DNA from: a virus
Length of the DNA stretch: 38,699 bases
IMG/VR virus record: IMGVR_UViG_3300042562_000544
Coordinates: 1-38,699 of that record
Direction: 5' to 3' (one strand)
In this document: one piece after another, positions 506 through 18,916 of the stretch
Position numbering within the stretch: the first letter of the stretch is position 1
Layout of the letters: each line of letters begins with the position of its first letter
Position numbers and translations under genes: made by a program
The notes under the pieces: model-generated
The model's database searches: none
Told to the model about the DNA's origin: nothing
What the model saw: the letters and a program-made list of their open reading frames with translations, nothing else

Positions 506-570
506 CCGTACTATCCCAAATTGTGGGACTATGTGCGGACCATATTAGCCTTGCCCCTAGGGGTAGGGTT
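506..570 (+). promoter_or_regulatory. Two-hairpin early leader 1
   Basis: The first hairpin is 506-538, with outer stem CCGTAC/GTGCGG and inner stem TCCCA/TGGGA. The second is 548-569, with stem GCCTTGCCC/GGGTAGGGT and loop CTAG. They are followed by AAGGAAGG and the ATG at 599. The first of six leaders with this architecture. Confidence 0.5.
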
Positions 571-598
571 ATCCATCAAATTAAGGAAGGTTAAAGAT

Positions 599-778
599 AT
601 GAACGAATGCGAAAAGTATGCATGTAACGCGGCGACAGTAGGCAATGTAATTGTGTCTACTATGTCAGTTATTGAAGCGATGGCGCACCTGTCCGACATG
701 AGAGACAGTAACCGCGGAGAATCGTGGACAGCTGCCGTGTTAGGTAAGCACGTTAGACACGCCGAAACAATCCTGTAG
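599..778 (+). CDS. Small early protein of unknown function
   Basis: 59 residues, starting MNECEKYACN. I chose the ATG at 599 because it follows AAGGAAGGTTAAAG, the ribosome-binding sequence shared by the early genes. An in-frame GTG at 461 would run translation through the leader hairpins. No domain is recognised. The only cysteines are the two near the start (CEKYAC), and the protein is otherwise mostly helical-looking. First gene of the early operon; a host take-over role is only a guess. Confidence 0.6.
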   Translation: MNECEKYACNAATVGNVIVSTMSVIEAMAHLSDMRDSNRGESWTAAVLGKHVRHAETIL

Positions 779-786
779 TGTTGGCT

Positions 787-835
787 CATAATCGGGCGCT
801 AGCGTGCTAGTGTTCGGTTATGTCCTAACAGTAGG
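787..835 (+). promoter_or_regulatory. Two-hairpin early leader 2
   Basis: A 16-bp stem (787-802 with 807-822, loop CGTG, several G-U pairs) is followed by the mini-hairpin CCTA-ACAG-TAGG (824-835). The ribosome-binding sequence AGGAGAGGATAGG precedes the ATG at 859. The G-U pairs mean the stem is stronger in the plus-strand RNA than in the minus-strand RNA, so it probably acts as RNA. Confidence 0.6.
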
Positions 836-858
836 GCAAAATAGGAGAGGATAGGGGC

Positions 859-1440
859 ATGAAAATATCTAAAGAATTCCGCCTGAGTGATGGGGGCCGG
901 GCACTAGTTGACCTGGAGTTGACACACCGCAATCTAGGCACTCAGGACACTGTAATCCATTCGGGTAGCCTGCCATACGGTTATCTACGTGTTTCTATGA
1001 GTGGAGAGCTTGCCCCCAAGGGTGTACGTTATGGGACTAGCGCTAGCGGATACGGGCAGATAGTTGACCATATGCCTAGCGCATTGCGCCGGGTGTGGGC
1101 ACGGTGGCACCTAAACGACATGAATGCAGGGTGCACCCACTTGGGTAAGGGTAGCGCAATTGGGGACGTGTGTAAGTGGACAGGGTACAGCTACGGGCAA
1201 GCCTGGCTAGTTGACCCGCTTACCCTTGACGGTGCCCTAGATATTCTCCGCGTTATGGGCGCATTGCATAGTGTTACTGTAGTGGCACGCGACAATATAG
1301 CTGTGTGGGTATTCGATAGCATGACGGAAGCACTCCGACATATGCACGCCACGCTACCCTATTCCTGGGATCATGCCATTAGGCATGAAGGTTGGCAGGT
1401 CGCTAACGTTATCGGAGTGCCCGAGCTTGCCACTGCCTAA
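859..1440 (+). CDS. Conserved early phage protein of unknown function
   Basis: 193 residues; start supported by AGGAGAGG upstream. The central segment RVWARWHLNDMNAGCTH (about residues 78-94) resembles a recurring motif in actinophage hypothetical proteins with a W-H-L-N-x-M-x-A-G-C-x-H pattern. The cysteine and histidine could bind metal. The remainder looks like a mixed alpha/beta globular protein with no transmembrane segment. No function can be assigned. It has its own leader (787-835) and is followed by another, so its expression is probably set separately from its neighbours. Confidence 0.75.
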   Translation: MKISKEFRLSDGGRALVDLELTHRNLGTQDTVIHSGSLPYGYLRVSMSGELAPKGVRYGTSASGYGQIVDHMPSALRRVWARWHLNDMNAGCTHLGKGSAIGDVCKWTGYSYGQAWLVDPLTLDGALDILRVMGALHSVTVVARDNIAVWVFDSMTEALRHMHATLPYSWDHAIRHEGWQVANVIGVPELATA

Positions 1441-1450
1441 CCTGTAGGCT

Positions 1451-1501
1451 CACACTTGCCCCTAGTGTTTACGCTAGTGGCTTGTGTGTCCCAACAGTGG
1501 G
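1451..1501 (+). promoter_or_regulatory. Two-hairpin early leader 3
   Basis: A 15-position stem with three mismatches (1451-1465 with 1474-1488, tip CTAG...CTAG) is followed by the mini-hairpin CCCA-ACAG-TGGG (1490-1501). Compared with leader 2, the mini-hairpin keeps the ACAG loop but changes both sides of the stem (CCTA/TAGG to CCCA/TGGG), a compensatory change. AGGAGAGGGTAG and the ATG at 1525 follow. Confidence 0.6.
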
Positions 1502-1524
1502 GCAACTTAGGAGAGGGTAGAAAC

Positions 1525-1893
1525 ATGATATACGTGTCAAGTAAGCACAACACACAACTAGAACCGACGACAGCGACACACAATATTTATTGGATAGGTG
1601 ACGGTGGGCACGGGTGGCTAGCTGTATCCCTGGAAGCATATCCCGCGGCTATCGAATACGGTACAGGATTCGGGTATATGAATGATAGTTTCATATTCCT
1701 GGAGGAAGACATGGAGGCTACAGCGTTCTTAATGGATCACCCCCAGGTTATGGGTGCCAATGGGCGCGGAATGCTTGCCGAGAAAATATATGAAGGTGAC
1801 GCACCCGTGCGCCGCTTACGCCGTAACCTGGAAATGTTGGACATGGAAGCATTCAAGGCACGCTTACATGCCGAAAATAGTGTGACTGTCTAA
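1525..1893 (+). CDS. Conserved early phage protein of unknown function
   Basis: 122 residues; the ATG at 1525 follows AGGAGAGGGTAG. The motif GDGGHGWLAV (about residues 26-35) and the acidic FIFLEEDMEA segment recall a family of hypothetical proteins found in phages and bacteria with an H-G-W-L core and a Y/F-L-E-E-D patch. No catalytic assignment is possible. No membrane segment. An upstream in-frame TTG at 1456 is rejected because it would include the leader hairpin. Confidence 0.7.
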   Translation: MIYVSSKHNTQLEPTTATHNIYWIGDGGHGWLAVSLEAYPAAIEYGTGFGYMNDSFIFLEEDMEATAFLMDHPQVMGANGRGMLAEKIYEGDAPVRRLRRNLEMLDMEAFKARLHAENSVTV

Positions 1894-1902
1894 GTGTTGG
1901 TG

Positions 1903-1955
1903 CATAGTCCGACACTATCGTATGGTAGTGTCAGGCTATGTCTCAATAGTTGGGA
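1903..1955 (+). promoter_or_regulatory. Two-hairpin early leader 4
   Basis: Stem 1903-1917 with 1926-1940 (CATAG/CTATG outer, GACACTA/TAGTGTC inner) and an 8-base loop, then the mini-hairpin TCTCAA-TAG-TTGGGA (1941-1955). The ribosome-binding sequence GGGAAGGGTAGGG precedes the ATG at 1979. Confidence 0.6.
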
Positions 1956-1978
1956 CTAGATTAGGGAAGGGTAGGGTT

Positions 1979-2122
1979 ATGAATTGTAATACATGTAACA
2001 CTATGACAGATAAGTTAGACATGTTTCCTGGTGACGTATGTCTAGCATGTTGGGCGAATAGTCCCGAGGGTAGGCGTATGCCTACAGCTAGTGAATTGGT
2101 GGCAATGTGGGGAGGAAAATAA
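1979..2122 (+). CDS. Small zinc-finger protein
   Basis: 47 residues with CNTC (residues 3-6) and CLAC (about residues 21-24), a two-CxxC treble-clef or zinc-ribbon layout. Start ATG at 1979 after GGGAAGGGTAGGG. Its stop overlaps the next start (TAATG at 2120-2124), so the two small zinc-binding proteins are probably made together. The DNA, RNA or protein partner is unknown. Confidence 0.65.
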   Translation: MNCNTCNTMTDKLDMFPGDVCLACWANSPEGRRMPTASELVAMWGGK

Positions 2123-2253
2123 TGAGTGGATATGATGGTAAGCAACCGACATACGATAACTTAGGTATATGTAATAAGTGTAGATATTCCTGGTCACACT
2201 GTAATTGTTCGATAGTTTGGGTAAAGAATCCTGACTATATTGGGAAAGGATAG
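2122..2253 (+). CDS. Small cysteine-rich protein, probable zinc binder
   Basis: 43 residues (MSGYDGKQPT...), translationally coupled to the preceding gene by a TAATG overlap, with GGAGGAAAA just before the start. Cysteines in CNKC and HCNC form a possible metal site. Function unknown. The short gap to the next start (5 bases) and the ribosome-binding site for that gene inside this gene's end (GGGAAAGGATAGG) support a real coding unit. Confidence 0.55.
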   Translation: MSGYDGKQPTYDNLGICNKCRYSWSHCNCSIVWVKNPDYIGKG

Positions 2254-2257
2254 GCGC

Positions 2258-2425
2258 ATGATTAACTTATTAGTATGGATAATGTTTGGACTGACAGTGT
2301 ACGTTATCTATTGGTACATGGTGCATAGCACTACACCTGAGAGTGTAGCGTGTGATGAATGTAACGCAGATATTGGTGAACCTTGCCGACCGTATTGTAT
2401 CGGGTTAGATTCTGAGGATCTATAG
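2258..2425 (+). CDS. Small single-pass membrane protein with cysteine-rich tail
   Basis: 55 residues. Residues about 3-23 are a continuous hydrophobic segment (a signal anchor or transmembrane helix). The tail holds CDEC...C...C, resembling a zinc-knuckle found in small actinophage proteins. The ATG at 2258 is preferred to an in-frame TTG at 2240 because AAAGGATAGG lies in the right place. Possible role at the host membrane; not known. Confidence 0.6.
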   Translation: MINLLVWIMFGLTVYVIYWYMVHSTTPESVACDECNADIGEPCRPYCIGLDSEDL

Positions 2426-2430
2426 TGCAA

Positions 2431-2485
2431 TGGTGCATTATCCTAGTATATGCTAGGGTAGTGCGCCATGGTAGGATAGTCCTAC
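2431..2485 (+). promoter_or_regulatory. Two-hairpin early leader 5
   Basis: A fully paired 16-bp stem (2431-2446 with 2453-2468, three G-U pairs, loop TATATG, tip CTAG...CTAG). The mini-hairpin GTAGGA-TAG-TCCTAC follows (2471-2485), then AAGGAAAGGTAAAG and the ATG at 2509. The clearest example of the leader pattern. Confidence 0.65.
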
Positions 2486-2508
2486 TAAGATAAGGAAAGG
2501 TAAAGGTA

Positions 2509-2673
2509 ATGGTGGATACTGTAGTGATAGGTAACGTTGATCGTGATCTATTAAGTGAGCAGACTCTGGAGCTGGTGAATCTGTTATGGAATAAGCCAGA
2601 CAGTAAACTTTGGGGTCTAGTAGAGATGTTAAATTCATGGTACGATAACAATAACCCAACAGAGGAAAGGTAG
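2509..2673 (+). CDS. Small early protein of unknown function
   Basis: 54 residues beginning MVDTVVIGNV, with a helical, leucine-rich centre (LVNLLWN, LWGLVEML). Start chosen for the AAGGAAAGGTAAAG sequence ahead of it. The GAGGAAAGG at its end is the ribosome-binding site for the clamp gene that begins 5 bases after its stop, so the two are probably co-translated. A clamp partner is conceivable from position only. Confidence 0.6.
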   Translation: MVDTVVIGNVDRDLLSEQTLELVNLLWNKPDSKLWGLVEMLNSWYDNNNPTEER

Positions 2674-2678
2674 AGACA

Positions 2679-3278
2679 ATGGAATTAGTAACAATCAATA
2701 GTGAGATTCTACATACGCTACTGAAAGGTGGCATGGTGGGTAGTGGTAAAGACAAGACACTACCAACATTGAATAGTGTACGTGTCGAGATACGTGAGCC
2801 ATTGGTACGTGTCGTATCTACCGACAGGTATCGGCTAGTTATTGGTGACGTTGACATGCCGGAAGGTACAGTGATGGAGACTGGTAACTTTACCTTACCG
2901 TTAGATAGTGCAAAGGATCTACTCAAGGCACTACCTATCAAGAAGGATAGTGGTAGTGTGCTTATCGAATTGAGCGATGACGAGAAGTATGTATCGTTTA
3001 CTTGTGAAAGTAGTGCTGGTAAATGGAGTAAAGAATACTTGACACTCACTGGTGAATTTCCTAAATATGAATCACTTATACCGACAGTGTTCACACCTAC
3101 AGAAGAAATAAGTTTCAACCCTGTATTCATGGCTGATATTGCTAAGCTTCCTGTATCTGCTAATGCGCCAGTAAGAATGAAGTTTACTGGTGAAAATAAG
3201 CCCATGTATGGCACGCTTCCTGGTGCTAACGGTGTAGCGTGGACTTATCTGCTTATGCCAGTGCGTATCACTGGGTAG
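2679..3278 (+). CDS. Reduced beta sliding clamp (DnaN domain II plus C-terminal half of domain III)
   Basis: 199 residues, about half of bacterial DnaN (about 370). Residues 28-53 (LPTLNSVRVEI... STDRYRL) match the start of DnaN domain II. Residues 120-135 match its end (L-x-G-E-F-P-K-Y). The chain then passes straight into the last half of domain III (FNPVF at 146-150; C-terminal LLMPVRI at 191-197). Domain I and the first half of domain III are absent. The parts kept are those that build the clamp's peptide-binding pocket: the T-D-R-Y-R-L loop, the N-P-x-F/Y helix and the M-P-x-R tail. A full ring would need an unusual assembly, so it could be an altered clamp, a binding decoy for host clamp partners, or a loader or polymerase adaptor. 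Start at 2679 has GAGGAAAGG upstream; no upstream DnaN-like sequence is lost by frameshift as far as I can see. Confidence 0.8.
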   Translation: MELVTINSEILHTLLKGGMVGSGKDKTLPTLNSVRVEIREPLVRVVSTDRYRLVIGDVDMPEGTVMETGNFTLPLDSAKDLLKALPIKKDSGSVLIELSDDEKYVSFTCESSAGKWSKEYLTLTGEFPKYESLIPTVFTPTEEISFNPVFMADIAKLPVSANAPVRMKFTGENKPMYGTLPGANGVAWTYLLMPVRITG

Positions 3279-3288
3279 TATGGTTCTG

Positions 3289-3344
3289 GGTGAGTCACCA
3301 TCTCCGCCTCAAGATGGTGGCTACGCCTAGGGTAGATTACCCTA
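3289..3344 (+). promoter_or_regulatory. Two-hairpin early leader 6
   Basis: Stem 3289-3303 with 3312-3327 (one bulged A), then the 7-bp mini-hairpin TAGGGTA-GAT-TACCCTA (3328-3344), then AAGGAAAGGTAAGG and the ATG at 3368. It lies between the clamp gene and the next gene. Confidence 0.6.
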
Positions 3345-3367
3345 ACAAGATAAGGAAAGGTAAGGCA

Positions 3368-3577
3368 ATGGTAAAAAGAATTAGAGTAACAAGAAGTTTT
3401 AGTTATGACGTGTCAGAGATTGTTGATAGCATAAAGGAATTAAACAATGACCCATCACTTGAAGTAAACTTCGATGAAGTTATGCAATTAGTGAACACTT
3501 GGGCAATGGAGGATTTTACATCCCCAATTTCACGGCATGATCTAGTGTTTATGGATGAGAATGGGGAGGAATTGTAA
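3368..3577 (+). CDS. Small early protein of unknown function
   Basis: 69 residues (MVKRIRVTRS...), basic N-terminus and acidic C-terminus, alpha/beta-looking. Start at 3368 follows the shared AAGGAAAGGTAAGG sequence; an in-frame start at 3239 would lie inside the clamp gene and the leader. It is coupled to the next gene by a TAATG overlap. Confidence 0.6.
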   Translation: MVKRIRVTRSFSYDVSEIVDSIKELNNDPSLEVNFDEVMQLVNTWAMEDFTSPISRHDLVFMDENGEEL

Positions 3578-3823: not shown

Positions 3824-4030
3824 ATGAGTAATCAGAAAGATTTTTACGCACACAATCTATTGGCTAGGGCAATGTATCTACAATTCTGTAACCATAAAGG
3901 CTTCGATCCTCGCCCATACCCTTACGTTGATGACGCTGGTAGGGATTACGCTACCGTAGCACTCACCTACCTAGGTTATGACGATAAGGCTATCGAGCTG
4001 CTGGAAACTGATGTGGCTGGTGACTTCTAA
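3824..4030 (+). CDS. Small early protein of unknown function
   Basis: 68 residues (MSNQKDFYAH...), helical-looking. ATG at 3824 follows AAGGAGAAG; the GTG at 3815 is too close to that sequence. It overlaps the WhiB start by one base (TAATG at 4028-4032), so the two are probably coupled in translation. Confidence 0.6.
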   Translation: MSNQKDFYAHNLLARAMYLQFCNHKGFDPRPYPYVDDAGRDYATVALTYLGYDDKAIELLETDVAGDF

Positions 4031-4299
4031 TGGACTACATGGATGTGGACTGGTCTAAAGCTGCATGTATCGGTACTGACTGGAGATTTTTTTATTCCGA
4101 TAAAGATGCTGGGTTTACTATTGGTGAATCGAGGGGTATCAATTTATTGTTGAGACGTATATGTGGGAAGTGCGATATTGTTAATGATTGTGCGGCGTAT
4201 GCTATCGAACATGAAGTGGCAGGTTTCTGGGCTGGCATGGCTGAAGATGACAGGAGAGAGGTGCGTAATGGGCGCAAGACTAGACCGTTTGCTGCGTAA
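4030..4299 (+). CDS. WhiB-family iron-sulfur transcriptional regulator
   Basis: 89 residues. Cys13, Cys45, Cys48 and Cys54 reproduce the WhiB pattern C-xn-C-x2-C-x5-C that binds a [4Fe-4S] cluster. GFWAGM (65-70) matches the G-[IV/F]-W-[GA]-G turn. A basic tail (RRE, RNGRKTR) would contact DNA. WhiB proteins are confined to actinobacteria and their phages and usually act with the principal sigma factor. Phage WhiB proteins can repress host whiB genes or alter host expression. Its place in the early operon fits a role in redirecting host transcription. Confidence 0.93.
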   Translation: MDYMDVDWSKAACIGTDWRFFYSDKDAGFTIGESRGINLLLRRICGKCDIVNDCAAYAIEHEVAGFWAGMAEDDRREVRNGRKTRPFAA

Positions 4300-5697: not shown

Positions 5698-5763
5698 TTA
5701 GCATGGTTGTTGTGTCACAACAGTACCGTTACTGGTGCTGTTGTGGCATGTCAGCCATGCTAA
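5698..5763. terminator. Nested hairpin between convergent operons
   Basis: The outer stem TTAGCATGG (5698-5706) pairs with CCATGCTAA (5755-5763). The inner 12-bp stem CACAACAGTACC (5716-5727) pairs with 5734-5745 around loop GTTACT. The structure sits exactly where the rightward early operon and the leftward replication operon meet, and its last bases contain the stop codon of the gene at 5760. There is no strong T-run on either side, so it may stop transcription poorly by itself or act with antisense collision. Confidence 0.6.
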
Positions 5764-6380
5764 TCATGCCAAGCCCAAGGTGGCTCACCACCAAGACGTT
5801 CCACCAGCTTATCCATGATCCGTTCATCACGCCTACGCACTGTACGGTCAGAACAATCCAACCATGCAGCCATTTCCTGTAAAGTAAGACCACCGTTACG
5901 GTAATGATTCTCCAGAAACACACGATCCTTCTCGGGTAGTGAATAGAATGCTGAACGAACATCAGCAATCATGGCTAACCGATTGTTTCCTTCATTAGGT
6001 CGGCTAGATCCACGAACTTCACCACCATACACAGTCTCGCCACTAGTCCAGTCTTCCACATCAAAAATGTTTGGAATAATTTCCCGAATCATTTGTTGAG
6101 TGTAATAAAACACATCATTCCTATCGAAACCTGCACGTTTTTGACGTTCAACACGGATAATAGTTAAACAACGTTGTCGTGCAGCATTACGCAGCTTATT
6201 TTCCCCATGTTTACCTTCATCCCGCCACTCCATAATCTTGTGGGGATGTTCCAACATCCATAGGCAAGCATCACTAAACAAGTCATCGGATTCAATCATG
6301 TTTCTACCCGATTTCCATGCAGACATGGAACCTTGTCGTGCTAGTTTAATTTCTTTATCAGTCAACTCTATGGTTACCAC
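5760..6380 (-). CDS. Sigma-factor-like helix-turn-helix protein
   Basis: 206 residues. Residues about 145-195 (LPEKDRVFLENHY... LTLQEMAAWLDCSDRTVRRRDERIMDKL) match sigma70 region 4, with a helix-turn-helix. The segment near residues 30-45 (ESDDLFSDACLWML) resembles the D-L-x-Q-E-x start of region 2. It is probably a divergent sigma factor or sigma-like activator that redirects RNA polymerase, perhaps to late promoters. It is the last gene of its operon and overlaps the phosphoesterase gene by 7 bases. No promoter consensus can be derived by eye. Confidence 0.7.
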   Translation of the reverse strand: MVTIELTDKEIKLARQGSMSAWKSGRNMIESDDLFSDACLWMLEHPHKIMEWRDEGKHGENKLRNAARQRCLTIIRVERQKRAGFDRNDVFYYTQQMIREIIPNIFDVEDWTSGETVYGGEVRGSSRPNEGNNRLAMIADVRSAFYSLPEKDRVFLENHYRNGGLTLQEMAAWLDCSDRTVRRRDERIMDKLVERLGGEPPWAWHD

Positions 6381-11380: not shown

Positions 11381-11386
11381 AGACAC

Positions 11387-11430
11387 AAAAAAGCCCCCCT
11401 ACACCGGATGATACCAGCATAGGGGGGTTA
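11387..11430 (-). terminator. Intrinsic terminator of the late operon
   Basis: Minus strand: stem of 8 G-C-rich pairs (CCCCCCTA with TAGGGGGG, plus-strand 11394-11401 and 11420-11427), then six T residues (plus-strand A-run 11387-11392). It lies about 80 bases beyond the endolysin stop and ends the roughly 27-kb late transcript. Confidence 0.8.
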
Positions 11431-11508
11431 ACGTCTGTATTGTGCCTTAAAAGCCTGTCTATAGGGCTTCCTGTGGCATGCTTTACAAGGGTTTAAGGCG
11501 GTTGTAAC

Positions 11509-12472: not shown

Positions 12473-14415
12473 ACACTCCGCAACAAAAGAGTCACAATGC
12501 CACCAATATTTTTACGATCACCACGAGACGGAGCCAACGTCTTCTTCCAAGTAACCTGCTCCACATACACTTCAAGCTGTTCACCTGTAGTATGATCTTT
12601 AAACACTACAGTGTTACCAATGTTTTCCATTTGCTTCAACGCACTAAACCTATTGAAAGCACCATTCGGTCTACCGTAAGATGAACCTTGCCTGTCTTTC
12701 TCAAAATCAAACATGCGTACAGGGATCTGGATTAGTTCGTTACGCCGAGGTGAAGGCATAGCCCTCAACTGGTAGCCAATCAACTTGGCTGAACAAGAAC
12801 ATTCAGGGTTAGATTCCAAATGGTAAGCCAACCACAAGTCAGGGGTAGGTAATGGTGCCGCAGCATTCAATTTACCTGTAGCATCATTGTTTACTGAGTT
12901 AACAGTAATCACACTATCCCAAGTGGAAGGTGTACCAGAGTTAGTTACTGAAGCATACGCTTCCACCGTGCCCTGTAAACCGTTCACACCAATAAGGCGA
13001 AGGTCACGCCACGATTTGTTTTCCATCACACCTAAACGGATACGACCAGTCTCAATCCAACCTTCCGAAACATACGTAGCCATTTCACGGAACACACCAG
13101 TACCGTTCACACTAAACCATAAACGGTCACCAGCAATAGTGACACTACGAGCCTCACCCGTAGTACCCACAGGTGCTGTCAAATCAGGGGCGTAAGCAAA
13201 CTGTAAACTAGACGAGAATGAAGTATTGTTTAACGACTGTCCAAGATTAATCCGATACAAGCCTGCACGTTGCACACCATTACCGGCTTCACCTTTATTA
13301 CGCACAGTCAAATACACGTATTCACCGTAAGCAACAGCATCATCAACCTGGGTACTGTTAAACACTAACGGACCCATAGTGAGAGTTCCGTTATCTGAAA
13401 TAGATGCAACCCTGCACCCTTCAGAAGTACCAATAATAAGGAACGAACCCACATACGAATACATGGATAAAACTTGTTCACCGCGAGGCATTTCAGCAAC
13501 CACTACAGGAACACTCAAAGTTACCGTAGTTGTTGTTGCAGTAACATCAATCTTGTAAATTAAAGATTCTTCACCATCATAACCTGAAGCATAAATAGCT
13601 GTGGGTCCTTCAGAAAAATCAGACCACACCCATCCACTGTTAGGGTGTGCATACAGTTCAGCAGGTAACGTGGCTGACGTTGGTGTCAAGTCAGTGATCT
13701 CAAAAATCTTATTGTTTTCACCATACATAAGACGAGACTTCACGAAACGTAACACTGACGAAGTAACAGTAGTGGCATCTTTATTATATATTTTAGTGCC
13801 AGAACCTGACGGCTCATTACCACGATAAATACCGCTACTATCTCCAGCCAACCAATACTGTCCCGTAGTAGTCAACGAGTTAATGTTTGCGCTACCACCC
13901 CACGTTACAGCGGCAGCAGTACCAGTAGTGGGAACGAAAGTTAAAACGTTACCACCAGCATGCAAAACACCAGTGTCAACACCAAGGATTTGTTGACTAG
14001 CAGCCGCTGAAGCAAACTTGCTTTCAGTATTTTTCAGTAACTGTAACTGTCCAGGAGTCCAAGGATCAACACCACCACTACGGTAATACCTGAATGATGC
14101 TTCCTCCGCTGCAACCTCGAGTGGTTCAGCTGACGATAAACCTGCACCGTAATGCCATGATGCTTGCGACCTGATCCACAAACCGGAATCTAGTGACTGT
14201 TCACCTGGGCTTCGTTCCGTGTCGATACGTTCCCTACGAAATTTACCTGTCTCACGAATGATAGGGTCTTGATCGCTTGTGGCATACAGGAAGTTGAGTC
14301 CACCGATAGTGCAATCCCAGTCGAGAGAGTCGGGACCGTATGATCCTTGCCCTTCACTGGCTTCAAAACCGTACCCTAAAGGTTCAACAACATCTTCAGT
14401 GTAGTCAACAGCCAT
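12469..14415 (-). CDS. Large tail protein, probable beta-propeller/beta-rich
   Basis: 648 residues with many short repeated beta motifs (for example Y-W-L-A-G-D, L-W-F-S-V-N-G, T-A-I-Y-A-S-G), typical of beta-propeller tail or receptor-contact proteins. There are no membrane segments. It is placed between the fibre genes and the lysis cassette, so it is probably a minor tail or host-recognition protein. No enzyme motif seen. Confidence 0.65.
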   Translation of the reverse strand: MAVDYTEDVVEPLGYGFEASEGQGSYGPDSLDWDCTIGGLNFLYATSDQDPIIRETGKFRRERIDTERSPGEQSLDSGLWIRSQASWHYGAGLSSAEPLEVAAEEASFRYYRSGGVDPWTPGQLQLLKNTESKFASAAASQQILGVDTGVLHAGGNVLTFVPTTGTAAAVTWGGSANINSLTTTGQYWLAGDSSGIYRGNEPSGSGTKIYNKDATTVTSSVLRFVKSRLMYGENNKIFEITDLTPTSATLPAELYAHPNSGWVWSDFSEGPTAIYASGYDGEESLIYKIDVTATTTTVTLSVPVVVAEMPRGEQVLSMYSYVGSFLIIGTSEGCRVASISDNGTLTMGPLVFNSTQVDDAVAYGEYVYLTVRNKGEAGNGVQRAGLYRINLGQSLNNTSFSSSLQFAYAPDLTAPVGTTGEARSVTIAGDRLWFSVNGTGVFREMATYVSEGWIETGRIRLGVMENKSWRDLRLIGVNGLQGTVEAYASVTNSGTPSTWDSVITVNSVNNDATGKLNAAAPLPTPDLWLAYHLESNPECSCSAKLIGYQLRAMPSPRRNELIQIPVRMFDFEKDRQGSSYGRPNGAFNRFSALKQMENIGNTVVFKDHTTGEQLEVYVEQVTWKKTLAPSRGDRKNIGGIVTLLLRSV

Positions 14416-18430: not shown

Positions 18431-18916
18431 TCATGCTCCCATCAGAAAGAAAACGTCTTGTAAACCAGCTCCACCGGCACCACCAATAGGTGCCCATGCC
18501 GTACCATTCCAACCATAATAAAGAGCCGTATCAGACTCGAAAATAACTTGCCCCGCAGAAGGTGAACCAGGGCGAGTACTAGATGTGACCACAAGAACAT
18601 GCTTCACATCAGTGTTTACATGCTCATTCGGTTCATCAAAATCACGGGCTGAAACACCATGATTGATAGCAGCACCAGCAGTGTGAGCCACACCAGTAGT
18701 ACCATCCACACCACGAGTCACCGTCAACGTGGTTCCTGTACGTGCAGTAACCGTTACAACTTCCTCATTAATCGTATCCTGATCAATAATGATTGTGTAC
18801 GGGAATGAGGTAGGCCAACCCGAAACTGCAGTAACACCAACAGTAGTAACACTACTGTTAATATCTGCGGCAAGAGTTGTACGTGCCGCTGTACTTGAAT
18901 AATATCTACGAGCCAT
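18431..18916 (-). CDS. Tail protein, fibre-related
   Basis: 161 residues. T-V-T-R-G-V-D-G-T-T...A-H-T-A-G-A...H-G-V-S-A-R-D-F-D-E-P-N-x-H motif, common in phage tail-fibre or tail-tip proteins, and a C-terminal Y-Y-G-W-N-G-T-A-W strand typical of phage fibre ends. Probably structural. Confidence 0.6.
   Translation of the reverse strand: MARRYYSSTAARTTLAADINSSVTTVGVTAVSGWPTSFPYTIIIDQDTINEEVVTVTARTGTTLTVTRGVDGTTGVAHTAGAAINHGVSARDFDEPNEHVNTDVKHVLVVTSSTRPGSPSAGQVIFESDTALYYGWNGTAWAPIGGAGGAGLQDVFFLMGA

Follow-up and report, generated by a model that had tools for sequence, protein, structure and literature searches.

Results

The stretch of DNA analysed here, referred to throughout as the window, is a virus record of 38,699 bases in the IMG/VR database (IMGVR_UViG_3300042562_000544) with a G+C content of 46%. 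Its early genes run rightward from position 599, its late genes run leftward, and the early region contains small unknown genes together with genes for a beta-clamp-like protein and a WhiB-like protein. Our subject is a structured element in the messenger RNA (mRNA) leaders of five of the early genes, those that start at 859, 1525, 1979, 2509 and 3368. In each of these leaders a long hairpin (P2) lies just past the stop codon of the upstream gene and is followed by a small hairpin (P3) and then by a purine-rich Shine-Dalgarno sequence (SD; Table 1). An earlier, sequence-only reading of the window had assigned a shared two-hairpin leader to six starts; the arrangement stands at these five but not at 599, whose leader folds differently (CCGTACTATCCCA-GTGGGACTATGTGCGG, then TAGCC..GGTTA, without the long-then-small order) and has no likeness in the relatives read (contigs L003 and L008). 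When the entire window was scanned for folding on both strands in 60-nt segments, all five P2 sites ranked within the nine most stable. Moreover, the mRNA strand of all five long hairpins folds far better than its complement, that of the 859 leader reaching -30.7 kcal/mol compared to -11.8 kcal/mol.

The sequence-only reading had missed a third helix. The region of the upstream stop codon, at or just past the stop, can pair with an arm or the loop of P3, and the helix so formed (P1) closes P2 externally. The second strand of P1 is the segment just 3′ of P2, the same segment that is used by P3, so that the small hairpin is one half of a competing pair. In our statistics set (99 elements, less than 90% alike, drawn from the window and its relatives), this second strand overlaps P3 by at least 3 nt in 88 of the 95 elements concerned. 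The pairs differ from element to element: TGTTGG:CTAACA at 859 in the window; CTAGGTA:TACCTAG, TTAGGTA:TACCTAA, CTAAGCGC:GTGCTTAG and CTAGACG:CGTCTAG in type II; GTAGTGG:TTACTAC as against TTAGTGG:TTACTAA in type III; GGCTAT:ATAGCC and GCGGT:ATCGC in type IV; and, in a further case, CGGTGC:GCACCG. Type III goes further, the sequence TAGTGG of the first strand of P1 being repeated in the 3′ arm of P3, TAGTGAGAT, which amounts to a three-strand exchange. When the energy gains of the two helices were modelled separately for 78 elements, they averaged -7.8 kcal/mol for P1 and -7.4 kcal/mol for P3, a difference of -0.4 kcal/mol with a standard deviation of 3.3. (In type II elements, such as the one at 2370-2440 of contig L067, the first strand may lie in a hairpin loop of its own, TCAC-TAGGTAG-GTGA, and this loop is complementary to that of P3, TACCTAG; a kissing-loop form of these elements is possible.)

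Pairing in all three helices depends on which strands are put together. When arms were swapped between elements, the mean stability of P2 fell from -24.1 to -9.9 kcal/mol and that of P3 from -7.15 to -2.10 kcal/mol; none of 2000 permutations reached the observed mean in either case, and the loss held within types I, II and III as well. Shuffled sequence gave a P3 of -3 kcal/mol or lower in 8.6% of cases, compared to 90% observed. The flanks that form P1 matched their own partners better than permuted ones (0 of 5000 permutations overall and 0 of 5000 in type II, 22 of 5000 in type I and 23 of 5000 in the window-like group, with too little variation in type III), and 55 of 96 elements passed the 0.05 level when P1 was compared with shuffled first strands, where 4.8 were expected.

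The alignment tests, which carried slide and shuffle controls, point the same way, and the slide and swap controls agree. In the alignment of 18 type II elements, 99.2% of P1 is paired and 5 of its 7 pairs have changed on both sides (0 of 500 shuffles, although such counts over related sequences are not probabilities), P3 is 97.8% paired, and the whole structure is 99.4% paired compared to 18-42% when slid. In type III (23 elements) P2 and P3 are each 99.5% paired, with 4 and 2 pairs, respectively, changed on both sides, and the seven window-type leaders are 90.7% paired compared to 30-47% when slid. The alignments indicate that compensatory change has preserved each of the three helices across related viruses. 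Judged on these comparisons, the leaders very probably represent a single family of three-helix mRNA elements located between genes, in which P1 and P3 compete.

The strands of P2 are also unequal. Its mean stability is -24.1 kcal/mol on the mRNA strand compared to -15.6 kcal/mol on the opposite strand, the mRNA strand being the more stable in 98 of 99 elements, and 285 of 1535 P2 pairs (approximately 19%) are G-U. The selection on RNA structure that the sequence-only reading had proposed is strongly supported by the strand bias together with the arm-swap tests and the covariation counts. Near the base of P2 a U-G wobble lies beside a C-G pair (TATC/GGTA or AGTC/GGCT, for example window 1902-1909 with 1934-1941), and this motif is nearly fixed, being present in 23 of 23 type III elements, 7 of 7 window-type leaders and 61 of 99 elements overall.

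The same evidence bears on the idea that the elements act as inverted repeats in DNA, as operators or recombination sites. Their palindromic look with CTAG tips would fit this, as would the gain and loss of genes beside the leaders in contigs L002, L003 and L006: the 54-residue gene at 2509 is absent from L002, where the leader runs directly into the clamp ATG, and a different gene stands behind the 3368 leader in L006 and again in L003, which retains the 3′ half of the leader before the homologue of the gene at 3577. However, stems that vary freely, that contain G-U pairs on the mRNA strand and that pair much worse on the opposite strand leave a DNA-level role very unlikely, and the strand bias largely refutes it. 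The earlier suggestion that the leaders are recombination joints between gene modules holds as a consequence but not as proof of purpose. Of the gene changes, that of the 54-residue gene is clean between two near-identical GGAAAGGTA ribosome-binding sequences (L002 approximately 150-230, window 2430-2680), which suggests recombination between these copies.

The architecture was found in approximately 90 IMG/VR contigs linked via the phage sliding-clamp gene. The close contigs L002, L003 and L006, the clamps of which are 70-95% identical to that of the window, and L008, a terminase relative, carry the same leaders with compensating changes. The 3368 leader, for instance, has the stem ACCATC/GATGGT in the window and ACTATC/GATAGT in L002, so that stem sequences differ while pairing is preserved, as the sequence-only reading had described. 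A clamp profile search reached 80 contigs, many with clamps approximately 33% identical to that of the window, and these contigs contain many such elements, often stronger than those of the window; the pattern occurs in close as well as distant relatives. Neither of the two observations that would have spoken against the sequence-only reading, equally strong folding of shuffled sequence and lack of the pattern in close relatives, was made. A strong hairpin lies right past the clamp stop at 86 of 87 loci, compared to 4.2% of background windows. A strict grammar for the element, which misses those whose P2 has mismatches, found 2 matches in the window, 1-6 per relative genome and none in a Markov-random genome of 320 kb; it also picked some hairpins in GC-rich cultured phages, where inspection showed the arrangement to be absent. 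A search with one type I pattern returned 38 IMG/VR contigs but nothing from 84,980 prokaryote genomes, and a clamp query against prokaryote genomes gave no match. Similarly, a back-translation search for relatives of the 1525 protein found none, the early region had no DNA match, near or distant, among 50,697 GenBank phages, and Rfam 15 gave nothing at or above the gathering cut-off in the first 5000 bases of the window or in 7 relatives.

Among cultured phages, those of Gordonia and Arthrobacter whose clamps are related show hairpins beside some genes, but the arrangement was not seen in them. The window is similar to phages LanE43-AprE7 and AprF5 in terminase, helicase, primase, capsid, sigma factor and the WhiB region. 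These are cultured phages of Candidatus (Ca.) Planktophila with genomes of 39 kb, 45% G+C, a WhiB protein and a sigma factor (PMC10202952), and on the strength of this gene similarity the host of the window is likely to be a freshwater actinobacterium like Ca. Planktophila. No such elements were seen in E7 or F5 despite the gene content they have in common with the window, and the family therefore seems to be a trait of a sister branch. (In phage E7, contig L154, a 22-bp hairpin at 18767-18820 lies immediately 5′ of AGGAGG and a start codon; its architecture differs.)

We next consider what the elements might do. The sequence-only reading had listed partial terminators among the candidate roles. 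Intrinsic termination is not supported, as the hairpins lack a T-run: TTTT follows P2 in 0 of 99 elements and P3 in 1 of 99, so that the combination of a GC-rich hairpin and a U-tract is lacking, and no terminator-like site lies inside any leader. (By contrast with the T-less early leaders, a classical intrinsic terminator, CCCCCCTATGCTGG..CCGGTGTAGGGGGG followed by CTTTTTT, is found at 11386-11450 on the minus strand of the window.) Promoter-like sites in the leaders were not above chance. Processive antitermination, in which hairpins in newly made early RNA alter the transcribing polymerase so that it reads through terminators, is known from the put RNA of phage HK022, which likewise has two adjacent hairpins in early phage RNA, and in the window family the gap between P2 and the start of P3 is mostly no more than 3 nt. 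However, put is present in few copies and is not known to be associated with start codons, whereas the window family is linked to starts (P3 mostly ends 20-28 nt upstream of the start codon) and is repeated between genes; moreover, the leaders contain no terminator-like site, and we know of no strand exchange in put. A function of this type is thus highly improbable.

The reading that we favour overall, at somewhat less than an even chance, is that the elements are sites for processing of double-stranded RNA by an RNase III-type enzyme at gene joints, with P3 refolding as a new 5′ cap. Cleavage followed by refolding as the actual function we hold a shade more tentatively. In this scheme P1 and P2 together would form a duplex in which each strand spans approximately 26 nt and the internal loops are small and symmetric, and which RNase III of the host or a similar enzyme would cut. 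Cleavage would release the first strand of P1 with the upstream RNA and free the second to refold into P3. As the new 5′-terminal hairpin of the downstream message, P3 would stand immediately beyond the ribosome footprint, where it would protect the message from 5′-end-dependent decay and keep the SD open. Cutting would be tuned by ribosomes that open P1 as they terminate at the upstream stop. Several measurements are consistent with such a scheme. The 5′ strand of the long fold measures 26 ± 3 nt, a near-constant total length that partly reflects the way in which P2 was delimited, and internal loops are symmetric within 1 nt in 87 of 93 elements. A duplex of this size lies in the substrate range of RNase III, and the elements have the sequence-tolerant duplex of at least about two turns that is expected of an RNase III site, which is suggestive only. 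In addition, the hairpins lack a terminator tail and the SD is mostly free in both folds (unpaired probability 0.62, and 0.75 with the upstream RNA masked). Cleavage and refolding would explain at once the competition of P1 with P3, their matched energies, the free SD and the drifting stems.

Besides the delimitation of P2, several points weigh against this picture. In type III, P1 is 95.7% paired, with conserved sequence and zero double-sided changes; the window elements are few, and the P1 counts for them rest on 7 sequences. For types I and II, a pseudoknot with P1 and P3 formed together is a possible alternative to their mutual exclusion. The accessibility of the SD shifts little on average between folds, and type IV elements have their upstream stops mostly 31-45 nt upstream, outside the first strand of P1.

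The chief rival, which we consider unlikely though less so than any other, is a switch gated by the stop codon: a terminating ribosome would cover the first strand and allow P3 to form, P1 would form when no ribosome is present, and the fold would report upstream translation to the downstream start. Such a switch would account for the stop codon inside the first strand. When elements were chosen by P2, P3 and the start codon alone, an upstream stop was found within 20 nt before P2 in 61 of 93 (about two thirds), and in types I-III it precedes P2 by 4-15 nt and in most cases falls within or immediately at the first strand, in reach of a terminating ribosome. Modelled masking of the upstream RNA up to P2 raised the probability of P3 from 0.41 to 0.73, and the accompanying gain in SD accessibility exceeded 0.3 in 21 of 85 elements, that of the 859 element rising from 0.15 to 0.58. 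In addition, the RNA-unfolding model of translational coupling is established (PMC12548453). However, in most elements the SD pairs in neither fold, which leaves no clear output, masking 60 nt raises access at almost any site, and compact gene packing alone would set an element beside a stop. The switch also fails for type IV, the stops of which are too far upstream, the distance from stop to start is approximately 91 nt, and a negative correlation with coupling has been reported for structure just past a stop (PMC12548453). Note that processing and gating by ribosomes can act together. More doubtful still is the idea that the elements make up a novel class of balanced RNA switches, repeated at gene boundaries along a phage operon, in which each gene's stop codon takes part in the P1/P3 strand exchange and ribosomes that complete a gene determine the fold behind it, and thereby the processing or the translation of the next gene.

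Recoding signals show a distance from stop to structure like the 4-12 nt seen here, and structure past the stop might accordingly be thought to drive read-through or frameshifting into the next gene. The frames, however, close after a median of 7-9 codons and pass the next start in only 6, 5 and 0 of 61 cases (frames 0, +1 and -1). Read-through or frameshifting is thereby excluded for most elements, and we give recoding almost no credence.

A simpler proposal is that the elements are passive boundaries, with P2 guarding the upstream 3′ end from exonucleases and blocking ribosome run-on, P3 insulating the next ribosome-binding site and the competition of P1 with P3 being incidental. The strength of P2, the intergenic position, the open SD and the difference in P3 sequences between types all agree with this, but P1 coevolves and is balanced against P3, which is not expected of incidental pairing, and we regard the proposal as improbable.

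Other features of the window are noted here for completeness. A sigma-factor-like phage gene lies at 5760-6380 on the minus strand (PHROG 354, with Sigma70_r4 just below the cut-off), and a sigma factor gene is also present in Planktophila phages E7 and F5. Two exact copies and one near copy of the DnaA-box-like sequence TTATCCACA are clustered in non-coding DNA at 240-300, ahead of the early genes; this cluster is a possible replication origin, and similar sequence occurs in L003, L007 and L008. The strongest hairpin of the whole window (5698-5763, 30 bp, -42 kcal/mol, without a T-run) lies where the early and late operons converge, and a different hairpin, of 19 bp, is found in L013 at 12503-12545, apparently at the equivalent operon junction.

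Table 1 Leader elements and neighbouring early features of the window
Feature	Position	Strand	Remarks
Leader of 599	506-598	+	Structured, outside the family: other order and position, no upstream gene stop
859, P1 strand 1 GTGTTGG	778-784	+	Directly at upstream stop TAG 776-778; from state A fold and column counts
859, P2	787-822	+	16 bp, several G-U pairs
859, P3 TGTCCTA-acag-TAGGGCA	821-838	+	CTAACA 825-830 doubles as P1 strand 2
859, SD AGGAGAGG	843-850	+	Start 859
1525, P1 strand 1 CTGTAGG	1442-1448	+	Past stop TAA 1438-1440
1525, P2	1451-1488	+	Internal mismatches
1525, P3 CCCA-acag-TGGG	1490-1501	+	ACAG/CC can also pair with strand 1
1525, SD AGGAGAGGG	1509-1517	+	Start 1525
1979, P1 strand 1 GTGTTGG	1894-1900	+	Past stop TAA 1891-1893
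1979, P2	1902-1941	+	One mismatch
1979, P3 GTCTCAA-tag-TTGGGAC	1940-1956	+	CTCAATA 1942-1948 doubles as P1 strand 2
1979, SD AGGGAAGGG	1963-1971	+	Start 1979
2509, P1 strand 1 GGATCTAT	2416-2423	+	Overlaps stop TAG 2423-2425; from L002 copy and window sequence
2509, P2	2430-2469	+	Most stable family P2 in the window
2509, P3 GTAGGA-tag-TCCTAC	2471-2485	+	ATAGTCC can also pair with strand 1
2509, SD AAGGAAAGG	2492-2500	+	Start 2509
Beta-clamp-like protein (sliding clamp)	2679-3278		PF02767
3368, P1 strand 1 CTGGGTG	3286-3292	+	7 nt past clamp stop TAG 3276-3278; aligned with L002 and L006
3368, P2	3293-3323	+	Stem replaced in L006, pairing intact
3368, P3 TAGGGTA-gat-TACCCTA	3328-3344	+	First 3 nt common to P1 strand 2 (CGCCTAG 3324-3330)
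3368, SD AAGGAAAGG	3352-3360	+	Start 3368
WhiB-like protein	4030-4299		

Discussion

Several known systems resemble the elements in part. The RNase III sites of phage T7 are long hairpins that separate early genes on a common transcript, contain internal loops and lack a U-tract. The window family is alike in these respects, and cleavage is what we tentatively propose for it; T7 sites are not, to our knowledge, accompanied by a competing small hairpin of this kind. The SAS and ESAS repeats of actinophages likewise recur ahead of the starts of some non-structural genes and include an inverted repeat that lies upstream of the ribosome-binding site. However, SAS (cluster K) is a fixed 13-bp sequence, GGGATAGGAGCCC, at the ribosome-binding site, whereas the window elements vary in sequence, and a search for it gave 2 matches at 3 mismatches, both far from the leaders, where 4.96 were expected. 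Similarly, the ESAS repeat has a 17-bp consensus, the changes in which were judged not to support pairing in RNA, and in Adephagia it holds promoter hexamers, whereas the stems of the window family vary freely and pair in mRNA and its leaders contain no promoter above chance. Membership in SAS or ESAS is thereby rejected. Finally, in coupling by RNA unfolding, as in phage f1 VII-IX and Escherichia coli rpmI-rplT (PMC12548453), a ribosome-sensitive structure likewise reaches from the end of a gene into the leader of the following one, but it hides the ribosome-binding site, whereas the SD of the window family is mostly free in both folds.

The elements appear to constitute a structured RNA family that has not been described, one that is near-universal at one joint, behind the clamp gene, and present in several copies per genome. 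Competition between two folds that are almost equal in energy, together with coevolution of the competing helix, is uncommon outside riboswitches and attenuators. If the proposed processing with refolding is true, the family would be a compact device with which a phage sets apart the messages of adjacent early genes and tunes them. The cultured phages of Ca. Planktophila, which are related but without the elements, provide a comparison system for very abundant freshwater bacteria that are hard to study.

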